A stretch of DNA of 57,622 bases from a virus. The stretch lies in the IMG/VR virus record IMGVR_UViG_3300048837_002337, positions 1-57,622 of that record. One strand, given 5' to 3'. Shown one piece after another: positions 5,449 through 44,674 of the stretch; within the stretch, counting starts at the first letter, position 1, and the number at the start of each line of letters is the position of its first letter. Below the pieces are notes generated by a model. The model saw only the letters and a list, made by a program, of their open reading frames with translations. It ran no database searches and was not told the origin of the DNA. Position numbers and translations under genes: made by a program.

Positions 5449-5835
5449 TCACATCCTCGGTGGGCGTTGCGGGGTCTTGGCGAGATCGACCGCAACCATG
5501 GTCGCGGCCATCACGTCGTCGGTTTCGGCGCGCCGGCAGAGCGCCAGGAAGTCGGTGCGGGCGATCGGGTTGAGCCTGATCCAGATCGGCGCGGCGTCGA
5601 TCTCGCGGCCCTCGATCCGGGCCACCCAGCGCTCGTCCTCGGTCAGTTCGCCCGTCTCCGGGTCTACGACCTGGCGGCACACGATCTCGACCGCCACCCA
5701 GGGCCCGCCCTTGACGTGCCGCATGCGATACCATCCCGCCTGCGGAATGCCGTCATGGCGCTCCGGCTCGCGCCCGGCGAGCGCATCGGCGTGCCACTGG
5801 TAGATTTGCCGGACGGTCGAGGGCTGGCGGATCAT
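5449..5835 (-). CDS. Hypothetical 128-aa protein
   Basis: A 128-residue protein with several Trp residues and a YRMRH...GGPWVAVEI segment, then a WVARIEG...IDAAPIWIRL segment, probably a compact beta-rich fold. ATG 5835 overlaps the stop of the next upstream gene. The longer frame to 6192 is a shadow of two other genes. No family recognised. Confidence 0.65.
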   Translation of the reverse strand: MIRQPSTVRQIYQWHADALAGREPERHDGIPQAGWYRMRHVKGGPWVAVEIVCRQVVDPETGELTEDERWVARIEGREIDAAPIWIRLNPIARTDFLALCRRAETDDVMAATMVAVDLAKTPQRPPRM

Positions 5836-6032
5836 GGCGCGCGCCTCACCGCATAGTGCAGGCGTCCAGCGCGGGTGAACTGGCGCAGCGATGCCAGCGA
5901 CCAGTTCACCGCCCAGGACGGGGGCATCAAGCGGTCGTTGAAGTAGACCCAGCCGTCGTTGAGGATGTGGATCGAGGCAGCGGCCACGGTCGTGATCGCC
6001 TCGCCCTTCTCGAACTGCTTCTCGTTCACCAT
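5832..6032 (-). CDS. Hypothetical 66-aa protein
   Basis: A short protein with several aromatic residues in its middle (WVYFNDRLMPPSW). It is linked by overlapping start and stop codons with both neighbours in the leftward operon, which is the main support for it being real. Function unknown. Confidence 0.55.
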   Translation of the reverse strand: MVNEKQFEKGEAITTVAAASIHILNDGWVYFNDRLMPPSWAVNWSLASLRQFTRAGRLHYAVRRAP

Positions 6033-30345: not shown

Positions 30346-31049
30346 TGAACCTGCTTGGCAAGATGGGCGGCGGCGCGTCCGGCGGCATGCCCCGCCCGGT
30401 CCCGCGGCCCTCCTCCTTCGACATGCCCGGCCAGGAACGCACAGCCGGCGGCCTCTTCGGCTCCATGTCCTCGCAGCAGCGCTACGACCTCGCCCGCTCG
30501 ATGCTGGAACAGGGCATGGCGCAAGCCTCCGGCTCGACCAGCCCGCTCCTGCAGTTCCTCGCCCCGGTCGTGGGCGCGATGGGCATGGGGCGTCTGGAAG
30601 CCAAGCACGGCGCCGCCCGCGACGCCGAGATCGCCGCGATGACCGGGAAGCTGAACGGCGGCCAGCCGCTCGACCCGGCGATGCAGGGCTATGCCGACAT
30701 CCTCAACAACGAGAACGCGCCCGAGTACCTGCGCACGCTGGCGAAGGAACGGCTTCTCGAAACCATGCGGCCCTCGAAGGCGGGCGGCGGCGGCTCGGCC
30801 GCGCCCGGGCGCGCGCCCTCGAACACCGACGCGCTTCTCGCCTCGATGTTCTACAACGCCGGGCTTGAGACGAGCGACGGCGGCGTCGCGATCACGCCCG
30901 CCGAACAGGCCCGCATCGACGCCGTGACCCGCGCCCGCAGCCGGTCCAGCAGCGTCTCCTACGACTACGGGGCGCCTTCCGTCGGCTCCGAGAGCGACCC
31001 GCTGATGATCTCGCCCACCCCCGACAACGATCCGCTTGGAATCCGCTGA
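30345..31049 (+). CDS. Hypothetical virion-region protein
   Basis: A 234-residue protein, Gly/Ser/Met-rich near the N-terminus, helical in the middle, acidic at the end. It starts on the last base of the previous stop (overlap of one base) and the giant gene starts on its stop. Likely an injected or internal virion component, by position. Confidence 0.55.
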   Translation: MNLLGKMGGGASGGMPRPVPRPSSFDMPGQERTAGGLFGSMSSQQRYDLARSMLEQGMAQASGSTSPLLQFLAPVVGAMGMGRLEAKHGAARDAEIAAMTGKLNGGQPLDPAMQGYADILNNENAPEYLRTLAKERLLETMRPSKAGGGGSAAPGRAPSNTDALLASMFYNAGLETSDGGVAITPAEQARIDAVTRARSRSSSVSYDYGAPSVGSESDPLMISPTPDNDPLGIR

Positions 31050-34000
31050 TGGCTGACCTGACGATTGCCGACGTTCGCGCCAAGTTCCCGCAGTACGACG
31101 ACCTGTCGGACCAGCAGCTTGCGGACGCGGTGCACCAGAAGTTCTACGCCGACGTGCCGCGCCCTGACTTCTACGCCCGGATCGGCCTCGCGGTGGCGCC
31201 CTCGGCCGCCAATCCGACCGCGGCCCCGGAAGACACCGCCGGCTTCTCCTCGGATCTCCTCGCGGCAATGGGTGGTAGCACCCCGGCACCGCCCAGGACG
31301 CCCGCCCCGGCGCAGATCGACGCGCCCGCCGCGCGCCCGATGCAGCCCGGAAGCCTCATCGAGGCGATGACCGGGCATGACGCGGCCCCGGTGATCGACC
31401 GGACCCGCCCGCCGAGCCCGCCCGTGCGCCCGCGCGAGGGCGGGCTCGAATTCGGCATGATGGGTGGTGCCTCGCCGGAGACGGAGGCCTGGGCGCGGCG
31501 CGAGATCGCACGTCAGGAGGCCGAACGCATTGATTTGGTTCGACCGAAGGACTCCCCCGGCATTGCCCCGGCATTGCAGCGGCAAGCCACCACCGCCGCG
31601 CCGGACCCGTTCGCGGGCGAGGGCATGGGCGATATGGCCGCCCGTCGTGGCCAGCAGTTCGCGCGCGGCGCCACCACCGTCATCGCCTCGGTGCCGGAGG
31701 CGCTGGAACTTCTCGGCCGCGACATCGTGCGCACGCGCCTGCCGACCTTCAACCAGGCCGGCGCGGCGCTGTCGGCCGAGCGCGAAACCCTTCTCGGGAT
31801 CATCGAGGCCGAGGGCGCGGAGAGCCAGCGCGGCCGTGCCGCCGCGTTGCGGCTGCAGGCGGTCGATGGCGAACTGATCCGCGCCGCCCGCCTCGTCCAG
31901 GAGGACGCGGCGCGCCTCGAAATCCCGCTCGAAGACACCAAGGGCTTCAAGGCCGGGAAGGCGCTGCGCGCCGCCTCCGAGGAGACGTTCGGGACGCCCG
32001 ACCCGCGCGACACCGGCTTCTGGGCCAAGCTGGCCGAGGGCGGCGGCAGCGTCGCGGGCTTCGCCGGCGCCTCGCTTCTCGGCGCCCCCCTGGGCCCCGG
32101 CGGCGTCCTCCTCAGCGGCGGGCTGACGGGTGCCGCGACGAATTCTTCGCAACTATACCAGGAGGCCATCCAGGCGGGTGCGGACGAGGAAACCGCCCTG
32201 CGCGCGGCGCGCATCGGCGGCCTCGTCGGCTCCTCCGAGGTGCTGCCGATCGGGCGGGCGCTGAAACTCCTGCCCAAGGGCATGCGCAACAAGGTCGGCG
32301 GCTTCTTCTTCAAGCGCCTCACCCATATCGCGGAATCGGCCGGCGAGGAAGCGGCGCAGGAATTTGCGATGCAGGTGGCCAACAACTGGGTTGCCAAGGG
32401 GTTGTATGACCCGGAGCGCGGCTGGTTCGATGGTGCAGGCGAAAGCGCCCTGATCGGCGCCATCCTCGGCGGCGGCATGGGTGCCATCGGCTCCGCGCGT
32501 GGCGAGGGCAAGGCCGACCAACTGCCCATGCGCACGCCGGACGAACCGCGCGAGCGGCAACCGCAGCAACCGCCCGCGCCGCTGACCGACCCGCTCCTGG
32601 CGGCGATGGGCGCTCCGGCACCTGAAGCCCCGGCTCCTGCGCAGCCCGCGCCCGCGCAACCGCAGGCCCCGGCTCCGGAGGCGGCACCGGTCCAGCCCGC
32701 GGCTACAACAAAGGCGCCGGAAGCAGCACCCGCGGCGCCGGAAGCCCAGCCGCAGGCCGATGCCGGCCGCTACGAGATCATGGACGAGGTCGAGACGGTC
32801 GACGGCGAGACGCGCCCGACCGGTCGCAAGGTCCGCATCGACATGGAGACAGGACAGGCGTCCGTGGTGGACGCCAACGAGGCCGCGGCGGGTTCCGACG
32901 CTGCAGGCGCGCCTGGTGGCGCTGATGCTGGTCAGCAAGGCCAGGAGAGCCAGCCGCAGGGCAGGGAGGCGAAAGGGGTGACGTCGCCCGCGCCCGCGGC
33001 TGGCGGCGCGCGCCCGGCGCCGCAGCGCAAGTTCCTCTCCCACGAGGAGACGCTGGCCATCGAAACCGACCCCGACACCTTCCAGTACAAGGGCGGATCG
33101 GACACCGAGGGCGTCACCAGCGCCCTCAAGGGCGTCAGCCGCTTCGATCCCAACCGCGCCGGCCAAGTGGTGATCTTCGAGACGAAGGACGGCCGCCGCA
33201 TCGTCGCCGACGGCCACCAGCGCACCGGGCTCGCCCGCCGCATGGCGGATGCCGGGCAGGAGGATGTCGGCGGCATGGCGGCGGTGATCTACCGCGAGGC
33301 CGACGGCTACACGCCCGAGGAGGTGATGGCGCTCGCCGCGCTGAAGAACATCGGCGAGGGCTCCGGTTCGGCGGTCGATGCCGCCCGCGTCCTGCGCAGC
33401 CGCAGCGAGACGATCGAGGATCTGGGCCTGCCGCCGAATTCCGCCCTGGTGCGCGATGCCGAGGGGCTGCGCCGCCTCTCCGTCGACGCCTTCGGCATGG
33501 TGGTGAACGGGGCGGCGAGCGAGCAGCACGGCGCCATCGTCGGCCGCGCGGTGCCGAACCAGGAGGTGCAGGCCAATATCCTCGGCCTGCTTTCCCGGCT
33601 GAAGCCCGCGAACGCCTTCCAGGCCGAAACCATCGCCCGCCAGGCGGCGGCCGAGACGACCACCGAGACGCAGGACTCGCTGTTCGGCCCCGAGGAGATC
33701 GCCACCAGCCTCTACCTCGAACGCGCCAAGGTGCTCGACGGCGCCGTGAAGGCGATCCGCGACGACATCCGCACCCTGACCGACCGCGCCGATGCGATCA
33801 CCGGCGCCGGTAACGTGCTGGCGAAGGACGAAAACACCCGCCGACTGGACGCAGACGCGAAATTGCGCGACTATCTGACGTCCCAGGCCAACATGAAGGG
33901 GCCAATCAGCGATGCACTCGGACAAGCAGCCCGCGCCGTCAAGGACGGAACGCCCGTCGCAGCGGCAACTCGACGCTTTGTCGAAGATGTCCGCAGAGCG

Positions 34001-37000
34001 CTTGAAGGCGATGGGACAGGAGGCCAAGCGTCTTCGGGAGGAAGAGGCGAGCCTGAAGGCCAGCCGCGCCAAGAGCCGGTAAGCCCGCCCGAGGGCGATC
34101 TGCTGGCCGCCATGGGGGCGACGCCGCAGACGCAGACGCCCGCCGCGAAGCCCGAACCGGATCTTCTCGCCGCGATGGGGGCGGCACCGGCGAAAAACCC
34201 GGAGCCGGATGCGAAGGCGAAGGCCGAGGCCCAGGTCAAGGCGAAGCAGTCGAAGATGGGCACGACGACGCCGCAGGGCGACGCCGGTCCGCTCTTCAAC
34301 GCGCAAGCCGACATCGAGGACGCCAAACCCGCGCTCGCGACGACAGCCGCCGTGCGTCGCGCCGCTCTCATCGACGAACACACCAAGGGCCCGGAAACCC
34401 CGCCGGAGGAATTCGCCGACCTCTTCGACCAGCCCGAAGGGCAGAAGCTGATCGCGAAGATGGAGGGCAAGACCCCGAAGGAGCGCCGCGCCATCGCCGA
34501 TGACTGGGTGCTGAAGACGGGTCGCAAGGCCGGATCAGAACACCTCGTCGTCTTCGACGCGCAGGGCGTGCCGGTCATCATCGCCCGCGGCGGTCGCGCC
34601 TCCATCTGGGTGCCGGAATGGGCCTATTTTGCCGGCGACGCCGGCGATCTCGGCTATGCGACCCACAACCACCCCGGCGACGGCGGGCTGTCGGCGCAAG
34701 ACCTCGTCTCGATGATGGCGATGCAGATCGAGATCAAGGCGATGGGGCACGCGGACGTCGTCCACGGGGCCAAGCCGGGTCCGGTCAAGCCCAGGAACGG
34801 GCTGCCGCCGCACAGCGAACGCACGCTCACCTTCAGCGAGGCGATCCGCTATGGCGCCGACCGCGTCCACGCCGGACTTCAGGACCGCATCAATGGCCTG
34901 ACGGGAGACGCCTTCACGCAGAGGGCGGCGCTCTACAAGCGGGCGCACTATGCCATCCTCAACGTCATCCTTCACCGGATGGGCATCATCGAATACACTG
35001 GCGACGCCGACAGGGTGATCGCCGAAGCGGGAGTTCAGGTCGATGACTTCATCGAAACAGTCGAAGCGGTCGTTCTTGATGGGTTTGGACGGGCCGGATT
35101 CCTTGTCTCCGAGATCCGAGATCACCTCCGCGCTGGAAAGCCTGAAGGCGATGGAGCCGACACCGGCGGTCGAGGCCGAGCGGAAGCGGCTGAACCGGCT
35201 GATGGAGACGGCGACCGAGGCGGGCGGGTTCGCCAGGACGGCAAGCCAGAGGTAAAGGACGACTTCGGCGCCGCGCTCGATGACCTCTTCGGCGCGAAGC
35301 CGGAGAAGCCCGCGCGCTCGAAATCAGACATCGCGAAAGACCTGGGCGACATCTTCGGCGAGGATGGCGACCTCTTCAACATGCCGGAACAGCCGAAATC
35401 CGGCCTGACGGCGCGCGAGCGGGCCGAGATCGAGGCGCGCCAGCGGCAAAGCAAGATCCGCCGCGCCAACCAGACCCGGGTCGAGGACGACCTGCAAAGC
35501 CTCTTCGGTCACGACCGCCAGGGCAACCTGTTCGGCGAGGGCGACATCGACGAGGCCAAGTACGCGCGCGCTGCGCCGGTCTTCAAGGAGGCCCTGGCCG
35601 ACATCGACGTCGCGAACACGCCGCGCAAGGACGTCTTCATCGCCATGATCCGCCCGCTCATCGCGGCCGGGCTCAATCGCCAGGCGATCGAGAACATGCG
35701 CCCCTACTTTGAGCGCTTCTTGAACGACGTCGACCGTGGTATCATCTCTCTTGCGAAGGGAACGGAAGATGCACAACGCACCGACGGCAATCTGGAACGC
35801 GATCGCGGAGACGCAGCCGCTCAAGACGGCCTGGGCAAAGCAGATGTTCCCGCTGCCGGAAGACCTGATGGAAAAGGCGCTGGAACGGGAAGAGGCGCGC
35901 CTGATCAAGGAGACGGGCGACAGCCGGGTGGCGAGCGCCTACCTTCTGGTGATGCCGCTCCTGTGGGAACAGAAGGCAATCCGCCGGTTCAAGGAAGCCG
36001 GGGGGCCGGGAAACAGCCTGCCGATGGTGGAAACCGCGCAGCAGGCCGCAATCCTCGCGAGCCGGGAATATCCCCTGACGAAAGCGCAACTGAAGCTACT
36101 GTCCGACATGCTCAGGACGGCCCCGAACTAAAGGGCCGCGCCGCCGCGCAACGCGCCGCCGACGAGCGGGCCCGGCGCGGCATCAAGCTGGGCGACGAGG
36201 AGGACGTGCGGGCCACCCTGCCGCTCCTCAAGCCCGAACAGCAGGACGACGTCGTCAAGATCGAGCGCCGCTTCGCCAAGCCGGACGGCCACGGCATGAT
36301 GCTGACCAACGGCACCGGCACCGGCAAGACCTATTCCGGCGGCGGTGTGATCAAGCGCTTCGCCCAGGCCGGCAAGACCAACATCCTCGTCATCGCCCCC
36401 TCCCAGGGCATCCTCGACCACTGGGCCGAGGCGCTGCACGATCTCGGGCTGAAGGCGAGCAAGCTGGACGACACGAAGACGGCCGGCGAGGGGATCGTGC
36501 TGACCACCTACGCCAACGTCGGCAAAAACCGCGCGCTGGCCTCGCGCGAATGGGATTTGATCGTTTCCGACGAGGCCCACAAGTTGAGCCAGAACGCGCA
36601 AGGCGACGCCACCTCGGCGCTCGACACGCTCCGCGCCATCTCGCACCGGCCGTCCGACCTCTGGCGCAAGTCCGAGATGATGCGCGCCGCGGAATGGGAC
36701 CGGCTGCGGGCGATGAAGGACGGCGAGGCCAAGACCGCGCTCGCCCATCGCCTCTACGAACAGCGCAAGCAGGACGTCGAACGGCTCTCGCAGCGCCCGC
36801 GCGCGAAGGTGCTCTTCCTCTCGGCCACGCCCTTCGCCTACGTCAAGAACACCGACTATGCCGAAGGCTACCTCTTCGACTATCCGAAGGATGGCCATGT
36901 CGGGAACAGCCGCCAGGGCGGGCAAGCGCTCTTCATGGTGGAGAACTTCGGCTACCGCATCCGCTATCACAAACTGACCCGGCCGGACGCGAACGTCGAC

Positions 37001-40000
37001 ACCGGCGTCTTCGAGCGCGAGTTCCACGAGAAGCTGAAGCGCGAGGGCGTGCTGTCGGGCCGTCACCTCGATGTCGAACCGGACTACGAGCGCCGCTTCG
37101 TGCAGACCGAGGACGCGCAGGGCACGCTGATCGACGACATCCTCAAGTTCATCCGCGAACAGGCCTACGGGCAGGGGCCGGACAAGGACGCCTATGCGGC
37201 GCTTCTGACCTCTGTCGGGAAAAGTTTCAACTATCTCAAGCGCATGCAGCTTCTGGAAGCGATCAAGGCGAAGATCGCGCAGCAGGACATCGACAAGCAT
37301 CTGGCCATGGGCCGGAAGGTCGTCCTGTTCCATGATTTCAACCGGGGGGGCGGATTTAACCCCTTCGCGCCGCACGACGAGGCGGCGCTTGAAGGCTATG
37401 CGAAACTGCTCGCGGCGCGCCCAGAGGTCGCCGATCTGAACTTCCGCGGCTACCTGCCGCCGGTCCAGGAACTGAAGCAGCGCTACGGCAAGCGCGCTGT
37501 GATCTACAACGGCACGATCCCGAACAAGGAGCGCGACAAGGCGAAGACGGCCTTCAACACCGACGGCTCCGGCACCGACATCATGATCGTGCAATCGGCC
37601 GCCGGCGAGGCCGGGATTTCGCTCCACGACATCAGCGGCGGCCACCAGCGCGTGCTGATCAACCTCGGCATGCCGACCCGGCCGACGACGGCGCTGCAGG
37701 AGGAGGGCCGCATCCGCCGCGAGGGCTCCGTCTCCGACGCGCTCTTCCACTACTACACCATCGGCACCACCTGGGAGCGCCAGGCCTTCGCCCGCAAGAT
37801 CGCTGAACGCTCCGGCACGGTCGAGAACCTGGCGCTGGGCAACGAGGCGCGCACCATCCGCGACGCCTTCATCGACGCCTATGAGGAGGCTTCGCCCTGG
37901 GCCCCGGGCGAGGGTGACGGCAAGGGCGGCAAGGAGCGCGACCGGGCGGTCGCCAAGGCCTCGCCCTACGAGATCGCCAAGACCCACTACTTCGGGCGCA
38001 TGAAGACGGCGGGCCGGCGCGACCAGCGCCAGGGCATCGACTTCTACCCGACGCCGGAACCGCTCGCCTTCAAGATGGTGGAATGGGCGCAGATCCGGCC
38101 CTACGAGCGCGTCCTGGAACCCAGCGCGGGCGATGGCTCGATCGCGCGCTACTTCCCCGACCACTCCGACCGCACCATCGTGGAGCCGTCGGTGGAACTC
38201 CTGTCCAAGGCGGAACTCCGGGCGATCGGCGCGCGGGCGGTAAACTCGACCTTCGAGGCCTATCACGTCGTCAACAAGCATCATGCGATCATCATGAACC
38301 CGCCCTTCGGCTCGGGCGGCAAGACGGCGATCGAGCATCTGGCCAAGGCCGCCACCCATCTCAGGCCCGGGGGGCGCATTGTGGCGCTCATCCCGACAGG
38401 GCCGGCGGCCGACAAGCGCTTCGATGCCTGGTGGGACAGTGACGAAAGCGAAGGCCTGTGGCGTTCCGCCGAGGTTGCGCTTCCTGCCGTCACCTTCGAG
38501 AAGGCCGGGACGGCGGTCGCCGCGCGCATCCTCATCATCGACAAGGTCGATCCGGTCGCCAGCGACCTCCTCGGCTCCACCAGCCGCATCAACATGACCG
38601 GCGCGCAGAGCATCGGCCAGTTCTTCGACCGCCTCGAAGGCATCGCGGCTCCGGCCCGGCCGAAGGCAGCGCGCGAGGCGGTGGAAGAACTCCTCGACGA
38701 GCAGGAAGAGGCCAACCCGGCCCTGGCCGCGCCCGAACGCCCGGCCCAGCCGCTGCCGGATCAGGGCTTCAGCCTGGCGCAGACCACGCACGGCAAGACC
38801 GGCGAGGCGCTGTTCGTCGCCACCGCCACCGCGCGCGTCAGCGACGAGGCCTTCAAGGCCACGGTCGCGGTCGCGAAGCGTCACGGCGGCTGGTACTCGT
38901 CCTTCCGCGGCAAGGGCGCGGTTCCCGGCTACCAGTTCAAGAGCGAGGCGCAGCGCCAGGCCTTCCTCGACGACATGGGGAAGCCGACGACCGGGCTGCA
39001 GGAAGAGGCCGCCGGCTTTGCCCGGCCGGTCTTCTTCTCGCCGCTCCTGCGCGCGGTCGAAGGCGCCAAGCAGGCCCGCGCACCGGCGAAGGACTGGAAG
39101 GCGATCATCGCCAAGCTGCCGGGCGTGAAGAAGGCGGAAATGGAGTGGACCGGCGTTCTCGACTGGCTCGACACCGCCGACGGCCAGGTCGAACGCGCCG
39201 ACATCGTGGCCTTCCTGCGCGCCAACCAGATCGAGATCATCGAGGAGCGCCAGACCGAGGAGGGCGAGGACTTCGATCCGGACGAACAGGCGGCCGAGGA
39301 GGCGCTGGGGCACGACCTCATCGAGGAGCCGGACTTCGAAATCTCCGATGGCGAGCCGCTCTATCCGGACGACTGGGACGACGAGGCGGAGTTCTATCTC
39401 GACGAGGCGCGGGAAACGCTGGCCGAGGAGGCGATGGAGGACTGGGACGAGGAGGAGATGGGCGAATTCGATCCCGCGTCGATCGCCGATGACGAGGTCA
39501 TGGACCTCGCCAGGCAGATCGCCGAGGAGCGCTACGAGCCGCATGAGTATTCCGTCACGCTCTACGACCGCAACGGCGATGCCTCCTACGACGGCTACTG
39601 GAACGCCGACGACCGCAGCTATTACTTCCCCGCCCTGTCGGACGAGAACATCGACCACAGCGATGCGCTGAACCTCGCCACCGCGCCGATCATGGAGGCC
39701 CGCCAGAAACAGGTCGAGGAGAAGCTGAAGGAGTTGCTGGCCGAGCACAAGGCCAGCCAGGAGCGCCAGAGGGCCGAGGACGGCTTCGCGGTGGTCGGGT
39801 CGGCGCGGTGGCGCACCTACACCCAGGGCGGCGGCGAGAACTACCAGGAGGTGCTGCTGCGCATCCCGCTCCTGCACAAGATCGGCAAGAACCGGACTGT
39901 GCCCGTGCAGGACGTGGCGGAACTCAAGCGGATCGAATCCGAGATGGACCGCCTCATCAAGGAGAAGGGAACCCGTGTAAAGTACACCGAAGAGTACATG

Positions 40001-43000
40001 GCCCTGCAACGGCAGTCGACGGCGCTCACCGATGGCGTGATGGGCAAAATCCCCTTCGTGCAGTCCTCGCACTTCAGCCGCACCAACGTCGTCGTGCATG
40101 CGCGGATCAAGGACCGCCAGGACAAGGCCGGCAACCGCGTGCTCTTCATCGAGGAAATCCAGTCCGACCTGGCCTCGAAATGGCGGGAGAACACCGAGAG
40201 TGTCGAGGTCACACTTCGCAGACGCGCCCTTGAGGAGGCGTTCGAGAATCTGGCGGCAGCCGACAGGGAGGACTGGAACATCCTCGAAAACGCCGTGTCG
40301 GAACATGCCAGGGCAGCCGGCGCGAACACATGGAAGGCTTCGGTGAATGAGTTTTTGGGGAACTCCACCCCGAGCGAGCCGGACTATTTCCACAGCGACA
40401 AGACGCGCGCCGCTGTAGCCTCGTTCAATGCCGATCCGAAGGTGCAGCGCGCGGTCGAGCGGATGAAGCGCAGGGGAGGCGAGAGGACGCAGTTGAGGGG
40501 TGAACTGACCGCCCTCGGCACCGAGAAGCGCATCGACCCGATGGTGCCGCAATCGCCCTTCTCCGACCCGGAACAGTACACCGTCATGGTCAAGCGGCTC
40601 CTGCGCGAGGCGGCGGCCAGGGGCTACGGCAAGATCGCCTGGACGCCCGGCTACATGCAGGCCGAGCGCTGGAACAACGCCGCGCAAAGCGTTGTGTCGC
40701 GGATCGAATGGGAGCCCTCGACGTCCGGCACCGCGGGCGCGTCCCGCGACGTGCTCTTCCTCATGGCCGGCGGCGGCAGGGAATTTTCCGCAACGGTCGA
40801 CGCCGAGGGCAAGATCCTCGCGACCGATGCCGAACCGTTCCAGGGCAAGACCCTGCAGGCGATCATCGGGCCTTCGCTGGCCAAGCAGGTGCTTGGCGAG
40901 GAGAAGGGCAACGTCGGCGGGCAGAAGATCGTGCTGCCGGATTCCGGCTATGCCATCGCCTATGACGGCCACATCCGCCGCGCCGTCGACAAGCTGACCC
41001 GCGTCCACGGCGTCAAGGCCGAGCCCGACACCTCGATCTACGACCTGATCACCGACCGGCTGGGCGCGCGCTCGACCTATCTCGAAGGCCTGACCACCGA
41101 GGAGATCATCGACCGCATCGCCAATGTCGAGCCAGCCCGCACCGAGCGGCTGCGCAACCTTCTGCGCGAAGACCCGACCAACGAGCCCTATATCCGCTCC
41201 ATCGCCACGGAGCCGATTTCCGACGCCGCTTTCGTGCGCCTCTTCCGCGACAGGATGGAGGACGGCCCGCAAGTCTGGTCGGTCGAGATCAACGACGCGC
41301 TGCGTGCCGCGGCGACCGAGCCGATGCCGCTTTTCCAGCGCCAGGCGCTGCGCCGCACCAGGCCGGTTTCGCGGGAAACCATCCGCCGCATGATGCCCAG
41401 GCTCAGGGCCGAACTGGACCGCCTCGATCTGAAGCGCGTGCACCTCTTCGAGGTCGACCCGGCGCGCTATCCGATGGGCGGGCAGGACGACTGGCAGGGT
41501 CTCGTCCAGCACGGCGAGAACGGCGATCTGGAAATCATCATCGGCGCCTCGCTCGATCCGATGAAGACGATCCATCACGAGGTTATCCACATCCTGCGGG
41601 GGATGAACCTGTTCACGCCCGAGGAGTGGCGCGCGCTCGAACTATCGGCCGCGCGCAAGTGGGTGAAGGAATTCGACATCGTCGCGCGCTATCCAAACCT
41701 CACGCCCTCCGAGCAGATCGAGGAGGCCATCGCCGAGGCCTTCGCCGAGGCCGTGGCGACGAAGAAGGCGCCCGCCGGGTCGGCCGTCATCCGCGCCTTC
41801 AACAAGATCGCGCGGCTCCTCAAGGCCATCGCCAACGTCTTCCGCGGCGCGGGCTTCAACACCGTCGAGGACGTTTTCGGGCGGGTGATCGCGGGCGAAC
41901 TCAGCCGCCGCAACGCCGCCAACACCGGCGCCCTGGCGATGCAGCGCGGCAGCAAGGCACAAGCCGCCCGTGTTCCGAACCGCCAGGCCCGCGCCCACAT
42001 GGCAACCGCCATGGGCGGCAACGCGGCCCATATCCCCGACCGGCGCGTCTGGGAGGAACTGACCCGCACCGGGGCGCCGATCTGGCAGCGCCTGCGCCAG
42101 GGCGCCGGGGCCGCGCATGACGCCGTCGACAAGGCGCGGATCAAGATGCAGGACCGTTTCCTGCCCGTGCTCCGGGCCCAGGAGGCGGTGGTGCGCACGA
42201 CCGGCGCCACCCTCAGCGCGGACCAGAACGCCTACCTGAAGGAAACCACCTTCTCCGGCAAGGTCGGCCGCCACCTCTTCGAGATCGACGAGGAATACAC
42301 CAAGCCGATCATCGACATCATCGCGAAGACCAAGGGCGCGCTGACCTCGGAGGCCGTCGGCGAATGGCTCTACGCCCGCCATGCGATCGAGCGCAACGCG
42401 CGCATCGCCGCCATCAACCCGCGCATGCCGGACGGCGGGTCGGGGATGACGGATGCCGAGGCGCAGCAGATCCTCGCCGATGCCGCCGCGGGCCCCTTCG
42501 CGGCCGATCTGGACCGGATCGGCACCCTGATCGACGGGCTGCGCGAGCGGACGCTGAAACTGCGCGAGGATGCGGGCCTGATCACGCATCGCGAGGCGAA
42601 CCTGTGGCGCCACCAGTACCGGCACTATGTCCCGCTCAAGGGCTTTTCCGAGACGGATCACAGCGAAGCCGTGCTCGACATCGCCGGGGTCGGGCGCCGC
42701 TTCAACACCCGCGGGGCCGAGTCGCGCCGCGCGCTGGGGCGTCGGTCGGAGGCCTTCAACCCGCTTCAGGCGGCGATCACCCAGGCGCAGGAAGTGTCCA
42801 TCCGCGCCGAGAAGAACCGGGTCGGCCAGGCGCTCTACAATCTGGCAAAGGATTTCCCGTCCAAGGCGCTATGGTCGGTGAAGAAGCCGAAGATGAAGCA
42901 GGTCTACAACCGCACGACCGGCCTCGTCGAAAGCCGTCTCGAAGATCCGGTATCGCTCCTGATGGACCCGAACGAAATGGCGGTGAAGATTTCCGGCAAG

Positions 43001-44674
43001 GAGGTGCGCATCGTCTTCCACGATCCGCGCCTGGCACAGGCCGCCGGCAGCGTCGGCGCCGACCAGATCGGCTGGTTCGTCGGCTTCATGTCGATGGCCT
43101 CCCGCTTCTTCAGTTCCATCAACACGATGCTCGACCCGGAATTCGTGGTGCGCAACGCGGCCAGGGACATGACGGCCGCGCAACTGAACATCCGCAACTT
43201 CGGCGAGGCCGACCGCAACGCCATCGCGAAGGCGATGATCCGGAACTGGCCCAAGGCCTTCGTCGGCGCCTTCCGGGGCCAGGGCTACAAGGCCGACAGC
43301 ACCTGGACGCGCTACTATCGCGAATTCGAGAAGGCCGGCGCCAAGGTGTCGTTCTGGAAGCTGGAACAGCCCGAGGCGGGCAAGTCGGATCTCGACAAGC
43401 GCATCCGCCTGGCCGGCGGCTCGCGCCTGGGACCGGTCAGCCGCTTCGTGCGCCTCTCGACCCGCGACAATCCCGTGCTGGGCTTCATCGAGCGGACCAA
43501 CCTCGCGGTCGACAACGCCGTGCGCCTCGCCGCCTTCGTCGCCGCCCGCCAGCGCGGGTGGAGCGCCCAGGACGCCGCGGCCCTCTCGAAGAACCTCACG
43601 GTCAACTTCAACCGCCGCGGCGAATGGGGGGCGACGATCAACGCGCTCTATCCCTTCGCCAATGCCGCCACCCAGGGCTCGCAGGTGCTCCTGCGCGCGA
43701 TCACGCACAAGCGCATGGCCAAATATACCATTGGCCTCATTGCCTTGGGTGTCATTCTTGATGCAGTCAACGCGGGCCTTTCCGGCGAGGATGACGACGG
43801 CGAACTGGCTTATGACAAGATCCCCGACTTCAAGAACCAGACCAACATGGTGGTGATGCTGGGGCCCGACTCCGACAACGGCGCGACGCTCTGGATGCCC
43901 TACGGCTGGAACCTCTTCCCCTACATCGGCCAGCAGATCGGCAAGGTGCGGCGCGGGGTGAAGGGGATGGACGAGGCGCTGGGTGATGTCGCCACCGCCT
44001 TCTTCACCGCCTTCTCGCCGATCCAGGGCGGGTCGCTTCAGTCTGTCATCACGCCCACCATGCTCGACCCGATCAACGAGATGGCGATGAACGAGGACTG
44101 GCTGGGCCGCCCGATCCGGCCGGAGAACGCCTATTCCGACTACGGGCCCGACGCCTACAAGTTCTTCGGCGGCGCCTCGGAGGCCTCGAAACTCCTCGCC
44201 GACACGATGAACCGCGCCACCGGCGGCACCATCGGCGAGAGCGGCGCGGTCGACATCTCGCCGGAGTACATCGACCACTTCTTCGGCTTCATCACCGGCG
44301 GGGCAGGGCGCTTCGTCGGCCGCGTGTCCGACCTGGTGGCGAAGGCCGCGGCGGGGAATTTCGAGGAGATCGAGCAAAGGGATGTTCCCGTCGCGCGCTC
44401 GCTCTACTATGAAACCGGAGACTGGCTCGACCGCGACCGCTACTATCGCTTCCGCGACGAGGTCAGGGAAGCCAATGCCGCGGCGAAGGCCTATCAGGAG
44501 GCGGGGGACAGGGTGCCGGATCATGTGAAGCGGCTCGCGGCGCTCTATCCGACGATGCTGCAGGCCGAACGGGCGATCAAGGCGATGAAGAAGGCCGGTT
44601 CCCAGGACCAGGGCAAGGTGTTCATCGCCTTCAACCGTCGCTTCCTCTCGGTGATGGGGAAGCAGGGTGAGTAA
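31049..44674 (+). CDS. Giant polyvalent virion-injected protein (DarB-like core), 4541 aa
   Basis: One uninterrupted frame. In order: virion-type N-terminus (1-45); glycine-rich membrane-like region (about 320-485); ParB-like domain with VADGHQR (about 719-725); JAB/JAMM-like HNHP at 1206-1209 with Ser1215 and Asp1218; SF2 helicase with GTGTGKT 1755-1761, DEAH 1841-1844 and QEEGRIRR 2217-2224; N6-adenine methyltransferase with EPSAGDG 2357-2363 and NPPF 2417-2420; associated domains with FIEEIQSDL (about 3045); HEVIH 3510-3514; long C-terminus (about 3650-4541). Helicase plus methyltransferase recalls P1 DarB, which protects injected DNA from restriction. DLLAAMG-type motifs recur at 69, 514, 1017 and 1038. 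Three linkers are overprinted by small +1-frame ORFs. Confidence 0.9.
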   Translation: MADLTIADVRAKFPQYDDLSDQQLADAVHQKFYADVPRPDFYARIGLAVAPSAANPTAAPEDTAGFSSDLLAAMGGSTPAPPRTPAPAQIDAPAARPMQPGSLIEAMTGHDAAPVIDRTRPPSPPVRPREGGLEFGMMGGASPETEAWARREIARQEAERIDLVRPKDSPGIAPALQRQATTAAPDPFAGEGMGDMAARRGQQFARGATTVIASVPEALELLGRDIVRTRLPTFNQAGAALSAERETLLGIIEAEGAESQRGRAAALRLQAVDGELIRAARLVQEDAARLEIPLEDTKGFKAGKALRAASEETFGTPDPRDTGFWAKLAEGGGSVAGFAGASLLGAPLGPGGVLLSGGLTGAATNSSQLYQEAIQAGADEETALRAARIGGLVGSSEVLPIGRALKLLPKGMRNKVGGFFFKRLTHIAESAGEEAAQEFAMQVANNWVAKGLYDPERGWFDGAGESALIGAILGGGMGAIGSARGEGKADQLPMRTPDEPRERQPQQPPAPLTDPLLAAMGAPAPEAPAPAQPAPAQPQAPAPEAAPVQPAATTKAPEAAPAAPEAQPQADAGRYEIMDEVETVDGETRPTGRKVRIDMETGQASVVDANEAAAGSDAAGAPGGADAGQQGQESQPQGREAKGVTSPAPAAGGARPAPQRKFLSHEETLAIETDPDTFQYKGGSDTEGVTSALKGVSRFDPNRAGQVVIFETKDGRRIVADGHQRTGLARRMADAGQEDVGGMAAVIYREADGYTPEEVMALAALKNIGEGSGSAVDAARVLRSRSETIEDLGLPPNSALVRDAEGLRRLSVDAFGMVVNGAASEQHGAIVGRAVPNQEVQANILGLLSRLKPANAFQAETIARQAAAETTTETQDSLFGPEEIATSLYLERAKVLDGAVKAIRDDIRTLTDRADAITGAGNVLAKDENTRRLDADAKLRDYLTSQANMKGPISDALGQAARAVKDGTPVAAATRRFVEDVRRALEGDGTGGQASSGGRGEPEGQPRQEPVSPPEGDLLAAMGATPQTQTPAAKPEPDLLAAMGAAPAKNPEPDAKAKAEAQVKAKQSKMGTTTPQGDAGPLFNAQADIEDAKPALATTAAVRRAALIDEHTKGPETPPEEFADLFDQPEGQKLIAKMEGKTPKERRAIADDWVLKTGRKAGSEHLVVFDAQGVPVIIARGGRASIWVPEWAYFAGDAGDLGYATHNHPGDGGLSAQDLVSMMAMQIEIKAMGHADVVHGAKPGPVKPRNGLPPHSERTLTFSEAIRYGADRVHAGLQDRINGLTGDAFTQRAALYKRAHYAILNVILHRMGIIEYTGDADRVIAEAGVQVDDFIETVEAVVLDGFGRAGFLVSEIRDHLRAGKPEGDGADTGGRGRAEAAEPADGDGDRGGRVRQDGKPEVKDDFGAALDDLFGAKPEKPARSKSDIAKDLGDIFGEDGDLFNMPEQPKSGLTARERAEIEARQRQSKIRRANQTRVEDDLQSLFGHDRQGNLFGEGDIDEAKYARAAPVFKEALADIDVANTPRKDVFIAMIRPLIAAGLNRQAIENMRPYFERFLNDVDRGIISLAKGTEDAQRTDGNLERDRGDAAAQDGLGKADVPAAGRPDGKGAGTGRGAPDQGDGRQPGGERLPSGDAAPVGTEGNPPVQGSRGAGKQPADGGNRAAGRNPREPGISPDESATEATVRHAQDGPELKGRAAAQRAADERARRGIKLGDEEDVRATLPLLKPEQQDDVVKIERRFAKPDGHGMMLTNGTGTGKTYSGGGVIKRFAQAGKTNILVIAPSQGILDHWAEALHDLGLKASKLDDTKTAGEGIVLTTYANVGKNRALASREWDLIVSDEAHKLSQNAQGDATSALDTLRAISHRPSDLWRKSEMMRAAEWDRLRAMKDGEAKTALAHRLYEQRKQDVERLSQRPRAKVLFLSATPFAYVKNTDYAEGYLFDYPKDGHVGNSRQGGQALFMVENFGYRIRYHKLTRPDANVDTGVFEREFHEKLKREGVLSGRHLDVEPDYERRFVQTEDAQGTLIDDILKFIREQAYGQGPDKDAYAALLTSVGKSFNYLKRMQLLEAIKAKIAQQDIDKHLAMGRKVVLFHDFNRGGGFNPFAPHDEAALEGYAKLLAARPEVADLNFRGYLPPVQELKQRYGKRAVIYNGTIPNKERDKAKTAFNTDGSGTDIMIVQSAAGEAGISLHDISGGHQRVLINLGMPTRPTTALQEEGRIRREGSVSDALFHYYTIGTTWERQAFARKIAERSGTVENLALGNEARTIRDAFIDAYEEASPWAPGEGDGKGGKERDRAVAKASPYEIAKTHYFGRMKTAGRRDQRQGIDFYPTPEPLAFKMVEWAQIRPYERVLEPSAGDGSIARYFPDHSDRTIVEPSVELLSKAELRAIGARAVNSTFEAYHVVNKHHAIIMNPPFGSGGKTAIEHLAKAATHLRPGGRIVALIPTGPAADKRFDAWWDSDESEGLWRSAEVALPAVTFEKAGTAVAARILIIDKVDPVASDLLGSTSRINMTGAQSIGQFFDRLEGIAAPARPKAAREAVEELLDEQEEANPALAAPERPAQPLPDQGFSLAQTTHGKTGEALFVATATARVSDEAFKATVAVAKRHGGWYSSFRGKGAVPGYQFKSEAQRQAFLDDMGKPTTGLQEEAAGFARPVFFSPLLRAVEGAKQARAPAKDWKAIIAKLPGVKKAEMEWTGVLDWLDTADGQVERADIVAFLRANQIEIIEERQTEEGEDFDPDEQAAEEALGHDLIEEPDFEISDGEPLYPDDWDDEAEFYLDEARETLAEEAMEDWDEEEMGEFDPASIADDEVMDLARQIAEERYEPHEYSVTLYDRNGDASYDGYWNADDRSYYFPALSDENIDHSDALNLATAPIMEARQKQVEEKLKELLAEHKASQERQRAEDGFAVVGSARWRTYTQGGGENYQEVLLRIPLLHKIGKNRTVPVQDVAELKRIESEMDRLIKEKGTRVKYTEEYMALQRQSTALTDGVMGKIPFVQSSHFSRTNVVVHARIKDRQDKAGNRVLFIEEIQSDLASKWRENTESVEVTLRRRALEEAFENLAAADREDWNILENAVSEHARAAGANTWKASVNEFLGNSTPSEPDYFHSDKTRAAVASFNADPKVQRAVERMKRRGGERTQLRGELTALGTEKRIDPMVPQSPFSDPEQYTVMVKRLLREAAARGYGKIAWTPGYMQAERWNNAAQSVVSRIEWEPSTSGTAGASRDVLFLMAGGGREFSATVDAEGKILATDAEPFQGKTLQAIIGPSLAKQVLGEEKGNVGGQKIVLPDSGYAIAYDGHIRRAVDKLTRVHGVKAEPDTSIYDLITDRLGARSTYLEGLTTEEIIDRIANVEPARTERLRNLLREDPTNEPYIRSIATEPISDAAFVRLFRDRMEDGPQVWSVEINDALRAAATEPMPLFQRQALRRTRPVSRETIRRMMPRLRAELDRLDLKRVHLFEVDPARYPMGGQDDWQGLVQHGENGDLEIIIGASLDPMKTIHHEVIHILRGMNLFTPEEWRALELSAARKWVKEFDIVARYPNLTPSEQIEEAIAEAFAEAVATKKAPAGSAVIRAFNKIARLLKAIANVFRGAGFNTVEDVFGRVIAGELSRRNAANTGALAMQRGSKAQAARVPNRQARAHMATAMGGNAAHIPDRRVWEELTRTGAPIWQRLRQGAGAAHDAVDKARIKMQDRFLPVLRAQEAVVRTTGATLSADQNAYLKETTFSGKVGRHLFEIDEEYTKPIIDIIAKTKGALTSEAVGEWLYARHAIERNARIAAINPRMPDGGSGMTDAEAQQILADAAAGPFAADLDRIGTLIDGLRERTLKLREDAGLITHREANLWRHQYRHYVPLKGFSETDHSEAVLDIAGVGRRFNTRGAESRRALGRRSEAFNPLQAAITQAQEVSIRAEKNRVGQALYNLAKDFPSKALWSVKKPKMKQVYNRTTGLVESRLEDPVSLLMDPNEMAVKISGKEVRIVFHDPRLAQAAGSVGADQIGWFVGFMSMASRFFSSINTMLDPEFVVRNAARDMTAAQLNIRNFGEADRNAIAKAMIRNWPKAFVGAFRGQGYKADSTWTRYYREFEKAGAKVSFWKLEQPEAGKSDLDKRIRLAGGSRLGPVSRFVRLSTRDNPVLGFIERTNLAVDNAVRLAAFVAARQRGWSAQDAAALSKNLTVNFNRRGEWGATINALYPFANAATQGSQVLLRAITHKRMAKYTIGLIALGVILDAVNAGLSGEDDDGELAYDKIPDFKNQTNMVVMLGPDSDNGATLWMPYGWNLFPYIGQQIGKVRRGVKGMDEALGDVATAFFTAFSPIQGGSLQSVITPTMLDPINEMAMNEDWLGRPIRPENAYSDYGPDAYKFFGGASEASKLLADTMNRATGGTIGESGAVDISPEYIDHFFGFITGGAGRFVGRVSDLVAKAAAGNFEEIEQRDVPVARSLYYETGDWLDRDRYYRFRDEVREANAAAKAYQEAGDRVPDHVKRLAALYPTMLQAERAIKAMKKAGSQDQGKVFIAFNRRFLSVMGKQGE
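33912..34082 (+). CDS. Nested 56-aa ORF in +1 frame of the giant gene
   Basis: A 56-residue frame (MHSDKQPAPSRTERPSQ..., then SAERLKAMGQEAKRLREEE) that looks like a real helical protein. Most of its third codon positions are G or C, whereas the giant frame here reads a Gly/Arg/Glu/Pro-rich linker with many A/T third positions. It starts near the end of the ParB-like region. Ribosome site is weak. Function unknown. Confidence 0.5.
   Translation: MHSDKQPAPSRTERPSQRQLDALSKMSAERLKAMGQEAKRLREEEASLKASRAKSR
35043..35255 (+). CDS. Nested 70-aa ORF in +1 frame of the giant gene
   Basis: Starts with ATG after GGAGTTCAGGTCG, just at the end of the JAB-like region. The product has a helical end (SEITSALESLKAMEP, then VEAERKRLNRLMETATEAGG). 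The giant frame across the same bases from about 35130 is a Gly/Asp/Arg-rich linker. Coding signal from ~35130 on is in this frame. Confidence 0.5.
   Translation: MTSSKQSKRSFLMGLDGPDSLSPRSEITSALESLKAMEPTPAVEAERKRLNRLMETATEAGGFARTASQR
35769..36131 (+). CDS. Nested 120-aa ORF in +1 frame of the giant gene
   Basis: The strongest of three nested frames. The product is a balanced helical protein (PLKTAWAKQMFPLPEDLME, VASAYLLVMPLLWEQKAI, LTKAQLKLLSDMLR). Its third positions are mostly G/C. The giant frame here encodes a Gly/Ala/Asp/Arg linker with many A/T third positions. It has GGAAG immediately before ATG and AAGGGA 10 bases upstream; a GTG at 35736 is an alternative. It ends just before the helicase domain. 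No family recognised. Confidence 0.65.
   Translation: MHNAPTAIWNAIAETQPLKTAWAKQMFPLPEDLMEKALEREEARLIKETGDSRVASAYLLVMPLLWEQKAIRRFKEAGGPGNSLPMVETAQQAAILASREYPLTKAQLKLLSDMLRTAPN

Follow-up and report, generated by a model that had tools for sequence, protein, structure and literature searches.

Can one stretch of viral DNA encode both a flexible linker of a giant protein and a complete small protein? The question is raised by IMG/VR virus record IMGVR_UViG_3300048837_002337 (57,622 bases, 67% GC), analyzed here over its whole length as the window. Its largest gene belongs to the DarB-like antirestriction giants, or polyvalent proteins (Iyer et al. 2017, PMC5512222; JC1 gp69, PMC9144972). Like these, it is multidomain, combines LPD38 with an SF2 helicase and a methylase-like domain, and stands in a late virion module of a virus record. 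Three open reading frames (ORFs), n1, n2, and n3, are nested in it. A preliminary description, made from the letters alone, took them to be small genes that had survived inside the giant after its fusion. Here, we propose that n1–n3 are genuine nested genes that would be internally initiated and would serve as dedicated partners of the adjacent module of the giant, their shadow frame being the linker of the giant. Taken as a whole, this proposal is moderately likely to be correct, and its parts differ in strength.

All three ORFs begin with ATG and are read in the +1 frame of the giant ORF, and the coordinates and lengths first assigned to them are exact (Table 1). In a phase plot, the third-position GC of the giant is ~0.8–0.97 nearly everywhere. 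It drops to ~0.59–0.63 over n1, 0.56–0.67 over n2, and 0.41–0.47 over n3, and the third-position GC of the nested frame is ~0.73–0.87 across the three intervals. The G/C-rich third positions claimed for the nested frame are thus borne out, with the switch falling precisely on these intervals. The sole other dip of the giant (~32489–32669) is an Ala/Pro-rich linker with no scoring nested ORF. In a codon log-likelihood scan of the window giant, exactly n1, n2, and n3 exceeded the threshold, and synonymous shuffles (30 of the window giant and 30 each of 13 other giants) gave no nested ORF above it. The giant translation in the overlaps consists of 67–72% Gly, Asp, Arg, Ala, Pro, and Glu, compared with 52% in the giant overall and 43–50% in the nested proteins, in agreement with the low-complexity reading reported earlier. 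Codon statistics favoring the giant frame and nested-frame stops in relatives had been named as signs against nested genes; the opposite was found on both counts, the nested frame being favored in the overlaps and kept open in the relatives. The ORFs sit in linkers as described, but they do not all start at the end of a domain. The starts of n1 and n2 fall in the C-terminal helix of the giant domain before them, a helix that is still conserved, and the first 30–40 codons of both ORFs are therefore dual-coding, not pure linker.

The evidence is strongest for n3. Homologues with 27–62% identity were located by tblastn and motif scans in 56 further loci, from phages of Ruegeria, Pseudomonas, Klebsiella, Serratia, and Vibrio as well as IMG/VR and prophage-like contigs; the copy of Pseudomonas phage Skulduggery is at NC_070827 33577–33966. 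In 55 of the 56 loci, the giant frame runs open across n3, which is read in its +1 frame. Some loci are one phage present in two collections, and the distinct n3 sequences number 47; the loci have GC contents of 0.40–0.67. When each n3 protein was recoded with the codon usage of its own locus, 238 giant-frame stops were expected across the 56 nested copies (window included), and none was observed; the giant frame is therefore under selection to stay open. For the seven loci with GC of at most 0.47, recoding left the giant frame open in at most ~1/4000 trials. The third frame contains 539 stops across the n3 copies. Substitutions at nested positions 1, 2, and 3 of n3 numbered 157, 136, and 289 in independent close pairs, and the amino acid identity of nested n3 exceeded that of the overlapping giant segment in most pairs. 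Judged by these patterns, the n3 frame is under purifying selection and is more constrained than the giant frame. Long chance ORFs are plentiful in a window of 67% GC, and n1–n3 might be functionless open frames in GC-rich linker DNA. This explanation is barely credible in view of the conservation over dozens of divergent loci, the AT-rich members, the third-position substitutions, the synonymous-shuffle nulls, and the Shine–Dalgarno (SD) sequences described below. A chance or GC artifact was ruled out for n3 and for a second family, nB (see below), by the shuffles and the recoding; n1 and n2 keep a small chance of it.

The start signal of n3 was compared with out-of-frame ATGs within the same giants. 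An SD match of at least 4 nt was found for 87% of the 47 distinct n3 sequences and for 22% of 4245 background ATGs (p = 6e-21). The n3 ATG is nearly invariant, and the SD spacing fits initiation. In 26 of the 47 distinct sequences, a nested-frame stop lies at most ~30 nt upstream of the ATG, so translation of these must begin at the nested ATG; in many n3 genes the stop is directly before it (TGA/TAA-ATG). SD-like purine-rich elements can also stimulate frameshifting, and the element just before the overlap could in that way direct ribosomes of the giant into the nested frame, yielding a truncated giant with a nested tail. The upstream stops, the near-invariant ATG, and a spacing suited to initiation make such a product very unlikely, and a programmed frameshift was rejected on account of these stops.

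The AlphaFold model of n3 is compact, with seven helices (mean pLDDT 95, pTM 0.88). A fold search against PDB and BFVD gave no match at E 0.001 or better, Pfam, PHROGs, and PADLOC gave no family assignment, and comparison with PDB sequence profiles yielded nothing beyond weak matches to helical proteins, TOM5 and a designed protein among them. Considering its nesting, the openness of both frames, selection, and the start signal together, we regard n3 as a real nested protein-coding gene.

Table 1 Nested ORFs, their putative initiation signals, and domains of the host gene (window coordinates)
Feature	Position	Strand	Description	Basis
n1	33912..34082	+	Nested +1 ORF, 56 aa	Phase switch; codon score 15.7; homologues at matching place in loci L015, L016, and L018
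n2	35043..35255	+	Nested +1 ORF, 70 aa	Phase switch; codon score 10.4; homologues in 6 further loci
n3	35769..36131	+	Nested +1 gene, 120 aa, predicted compact all-helical protein	Codon score 75.5
SD-like gaaggg before n1	33896..33901	+		Sequence; similar purine-rich element before n1 in L015, L016, and L018
SD-like ggag before n2	35030..35033	+		Sequence
SD-like AAGGGAACGG before n3	35756..35765	+		Sequence; SD statistics over the n3 family
Giant DarB-like polyvalent gene	31049..44674	+	One uninterrupted frame, 4541 aa	SF2 helicase, methyltransferase-like, and LPD38 domains
SF2 helicase type A module, giant frame	36206..38005	+	Directly downstream of n3	Co-occurs with n3
Methyltransferase-like (MTS) match, giant frame	38234..38386	+		Pfam, weak, E 0.0034
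LPD38, large polyvalent protein associated domain	43808..44392	+		Pfam, E 3.4e-43

The two shorter ORFs are supported by fewer loci. n2 has homologues at the syntenic place in all six further loci listed (seven in all), each in +1, and 16.3 giant-frame stops were expected in its overlaps, compared with none found. Its nested identity is 0.38/0.36 versus 0.29/0.27 for the giant over the seven loci, with nearly flat substitution positions. n2 is very probably a real gene on these grounds. n1 is found at the syntenic place in the three further loci, again in +1. In the first half of n1, which overlies the conserved end of a giant domain, the nested identity is 0.46 versus 0.60 for the giant; in the second half it is 0.40 versus 0.32 (four loci only). 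n1 is likely to be a real gene as well, the weakest of the three. IMG/VR searches with n1 or n2 alone gave no matches, and their homologues came from loci retrieved with n3.

The frame common to n1–n3 has a simple codon-level basis. In the +1 phase, any giant-frame stop requires T at a nested third position, and the change from T to C there (NNT to NNC) is silent for every amino acid. In the other phase, some stops are unavoidable; for example, ATG followed by A gives TGA. The +1 phase is thus the only one in which such nesting is easy, because each shadow stop can be removed by a silent T-to-C change, and the common frame need not mean a common history.

Nesting of this kind is found beyond n3. 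nB is a different nested +1 gene, of 105 aa, in the DarB-like gene of Erwinia phage PEp14, and it occupies in other DarB-like giants the same linker position as n3. No remote homology between n3 and nB was detected. All nine phage loci examined have nB nested, that of PBC5 in a giant with a frame break upstream. Among 55 IMG/VR loci, 53 have nB nested and two are truncated by contig ends; some of the IMG/VR loci are the same phages as among the nine. In the IMG/VR loci, 235.6 giant-frame stops were expected in nB and none was found. The nB model is helical, with residues 1–70 confident. Sub-threshold similarity to TnpV (PF14198) was found in 19 of 32 nB members (best E 3.6e-5), whereas n3 has none; we know of no established role for TnpV. 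A third family, nC, is nested in nine of nine cases in JC1 and Bcep22-like phages; the nested ORF of JC1 (OM283127 49303–49641) has 112 aa. In total, ~100 related phage sequences keep this kind of nested arrangement, and candidate nested ORFs also occur in phages 8P, USP_18, and Y7 and in a Bacteroides phage. As a separate observation, two AT-richer DarB-like giants have candidate nested +1 ORFs directly before the methylase/helicase module, in Bacteroides phage BKO1-TP3 (L081 ~5651–5917) and Pseudoalteromonas phage Y7 (L077:4465–4761). In Sinorhizobium phage PBC5 (NC_003324; L073 4716–11309), the DarB-like gene is in two ORFs, the first ending in frame with nB; this may be a sequencing error, or the frame may truly be broken there, fusing the first ORF with nB.

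The nested gene is associated with the module that follows it. Helicase type A is downstream of n3 in nearly all loci, the exceptions being L058, L063, and the stand-alone copy in L062 described below, and an N6-methylase/SNF2-type module, B, is downstream of nB. No mixed pairing was seen between n3/helicase A and nB/module B, and eight of eight phage records with helicase A carry n3. In the Klebsiella phages ZX1, with n3 and A, and LASTA, with nB and B, the upstream aligned stretches are 81–95% identical, the last of these alignments ends on the nested ATG, and nucleotide similarity is lost from there to past the module. The pattern recurs between Parlo and PEp14, with the breakpoint within 6 nt of the nested ATG. 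Over 15 loci, the distances between n3 copies correlate with those between the helicases (r = 0.91; 0.74 as a partial correlation with LPD38 taken into account), a closer agreement than n3 shows with LPD38. In these comparisons, the nested gene and the following module act as a single exchangeable cassette with its breakpoint at the nested ATG.

A functional tie between the nested protein and the module is the best inference from this association. In the mechanism we propose, the nested ORFs would be translated from the shared late mRNA by internal initiation at their own SD sequences, and each small protein would be the dedicated partner of the adjacent helicase or methylase module. The partner would aid folding of the module, its loading into the head, or its control until ejection, by analogy with the P1 Dar accessory proteins of DarB. 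The giant, being of the ejected type, would stay continuous, with the shadow frame of the partner gene serving as a flexible, disordered linker rich in Gly, Asp, Arg, Ala, Pro, and Glu. The same genes could instead be real but general passengers with virion or late functions and no functional tie to the neighboring module. The nested n3 copies of L058 and L063 and the stand-alone n3 of L062, all lacking helicase A, would suit passengers, as would the occurrence of several nested families at various linkers. The unmixed pairing, the breakpoints at the nested ATG, and the closer tracking of the helicase than of LPD38 speak for dedicated partners, and the passenger explanation seems unlikely, although it keeps appreciable weight. 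Several points also count against the partner mechanism itself. The case for a partner role is built from co-occurrence, breakpoints, and distance correlation, and physical linkage by itself could account for some of these signals; the L058 and L063 copies, like the L062 copy with no helicase A nearby, do not fit it. nB is only distantly TnpV-like, the PEp14 copy scoring 20.7 bits against a Pfam gathering cut-off of 27. For n1 and n2, homologues are few and the codon signals weaker, and the giant frame explains part of the n1 conservation. In a separate search, the regions that precede module B in three gut contigs and one streptococcal element revealed no candidate for a partner gene.

The origin of the nested genes bears on the same proposal. 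A stand-alone n3 is present in L062:8819–9555 (contig JAFLDG010000003.1, a metagenome-assembled genome of Burkholderiales), in a small integrated element between tRNA-Pro and an integrase; a search of 399 genomes of this order revealed no n3 beyond L062. This element also has a small SD-preceded ORF directly upstream of n3 and primase-like genes, and it appears satellite-like, as a single example. Coding composition in the overlaps is normal in the nested frame and not in the giant frame. The stand-alone copy and this composition would suit an origin of n3 as an independent gene. It might be argued from the lack of any distant n3 homologue in Pfam, PHROGs, PDB, or BFVD that the nested genes arose de novo by overprinting an existing giant linker. 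In that case, however, the low-complexity composition and the atypical codon use would not be expected to belong to the giant frame, as they do; together with the greater conservation of the nested frame, the below-cut-off resemblance of nB to TnpV, and the L062 copy, this makes a de novo origin improbable.

As to how the genes came to be nested, the preliminary description assumed that separate genes with small intervening genes were fused by read-through. The survival of the small genes inside the giant stands; the read-through history is one of two possible accounts, and no intact relative came to light in which separate genes take the place of the giant. The stand-alone n3, the more conserved nested frame, and the cassette breakpoint at the nested ATG are consistent with such a fusion; they agree just as well with nested cassettes that were inserted or exchanged ready-made. 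A broader picture can be drawn tentatively, with somewhat less than an even chance of being right: the giants may be fused operons whose small partner genes remain alive in the linkers, with the shadow frame of the partner as the linker, partner and module swapped as a cassette at the nested start, and the nested proteins as subunits, so far unrecognized, of methylase/helicase antirestriction machines carried in the virion.

Gene nesting in itself is already known in phages, one example being Rz1 embedded within Rz, mentioned for JC1 (PMC9144972). Like Rz1, the genes described here are complete out-of-frame genes inside another gene with their own start; unlike Rz1/Rz, they comprise several families in giant-gene linkers, are under stronger constraint than the host frame, and travel as a cassette together with the host-protein domain that lies downstream. 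The polyvalent-protein accounts, in the portions consulted (PMC5512222, PMC9144972), mention no nested genes. Our search of the literature on DarB-like and polyvalent genes, which did not extend to the original 2011 Bcep22 genome paper, likewise found none described, in keeping with the novelty first suggested for this locus. In the records examined, among them JC1, BcepIL02, Skulduggery, Parlo, and the Klebsiella phages, the nested genes are unannotated because each lies wholly inside a longer ORF, and the linkers over which they lie carry no annotation beyond DarB-like, PLxRFG, methylase, or hypothetical protein. The proposed functional analogy is with phage P1, where small partners accompany a DarB-type protein in the virion head: Ulx (17 kDa) is listed as "Aids DarB localization" (PMC9024508), and Hdf accompanies DarA (PMC12810830). 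The P1 Dar accessory genes are separate, whereas n3 and nB are nested, and Ulx showed no homology to n3 or nB (hhalign probability below 1).

The JC1 homologue of the giant was detected in virions by mass spectrometry, and the JC1 authors' own search for counterparts of the P1 accessory proteins was negative (PMC9144972). Should the nested proteins be produced, subunits of the DarB-like antirestriction machinery have been missed. One DNA stretch encodes both the flexible linker of the giant and a small helical protein, and the system offers a rare, well-sampled natural test of long dual coding in double-stranded DNA phages and of how multidomain giants grow by fusion, with a simple codon-level reason for the +1 phase.

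Further nested ORFs accompany or resemble those described above. In L032:8845–9390, an ORF of 49–54 aa (MTDSNGKSSKPASNK type) forms a nested tandem pair with n3, its stop codon directly preceding the n3 ATG; the pair is at the matching place in L033–L037, L040, and L043–L048. Another nested +1 family, recognized by eye only, has the pattern DTLETW..FL..L....A..VI.EK (L008:7461–7613, L055:8146–8316, L022:13138–13284, and L070:17589–17798). The linker that holds it varies from giant to giant, as though nested genes were able to move from one linker to another. In Pseudomonas phage Itty13 (NC_070969; L069 5987–18323), a DarB-like giant is apparently unannotated, and three long antisense ORFs are annotated instead. 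In the window giant itself, Pfam matches comprise ResIII (E 1.5e-12) and Helicase_C (E 3e-6) in addition to the LPD38 and weak MTS matches. The motif LLAAMG occurs four times in linkers of the giant protein (window positions 31256, 32594, 34100, and 34163, giant frame), accompanied by DLFG/DLFN/DLFD relatives, and is perhaps a short binding motif.

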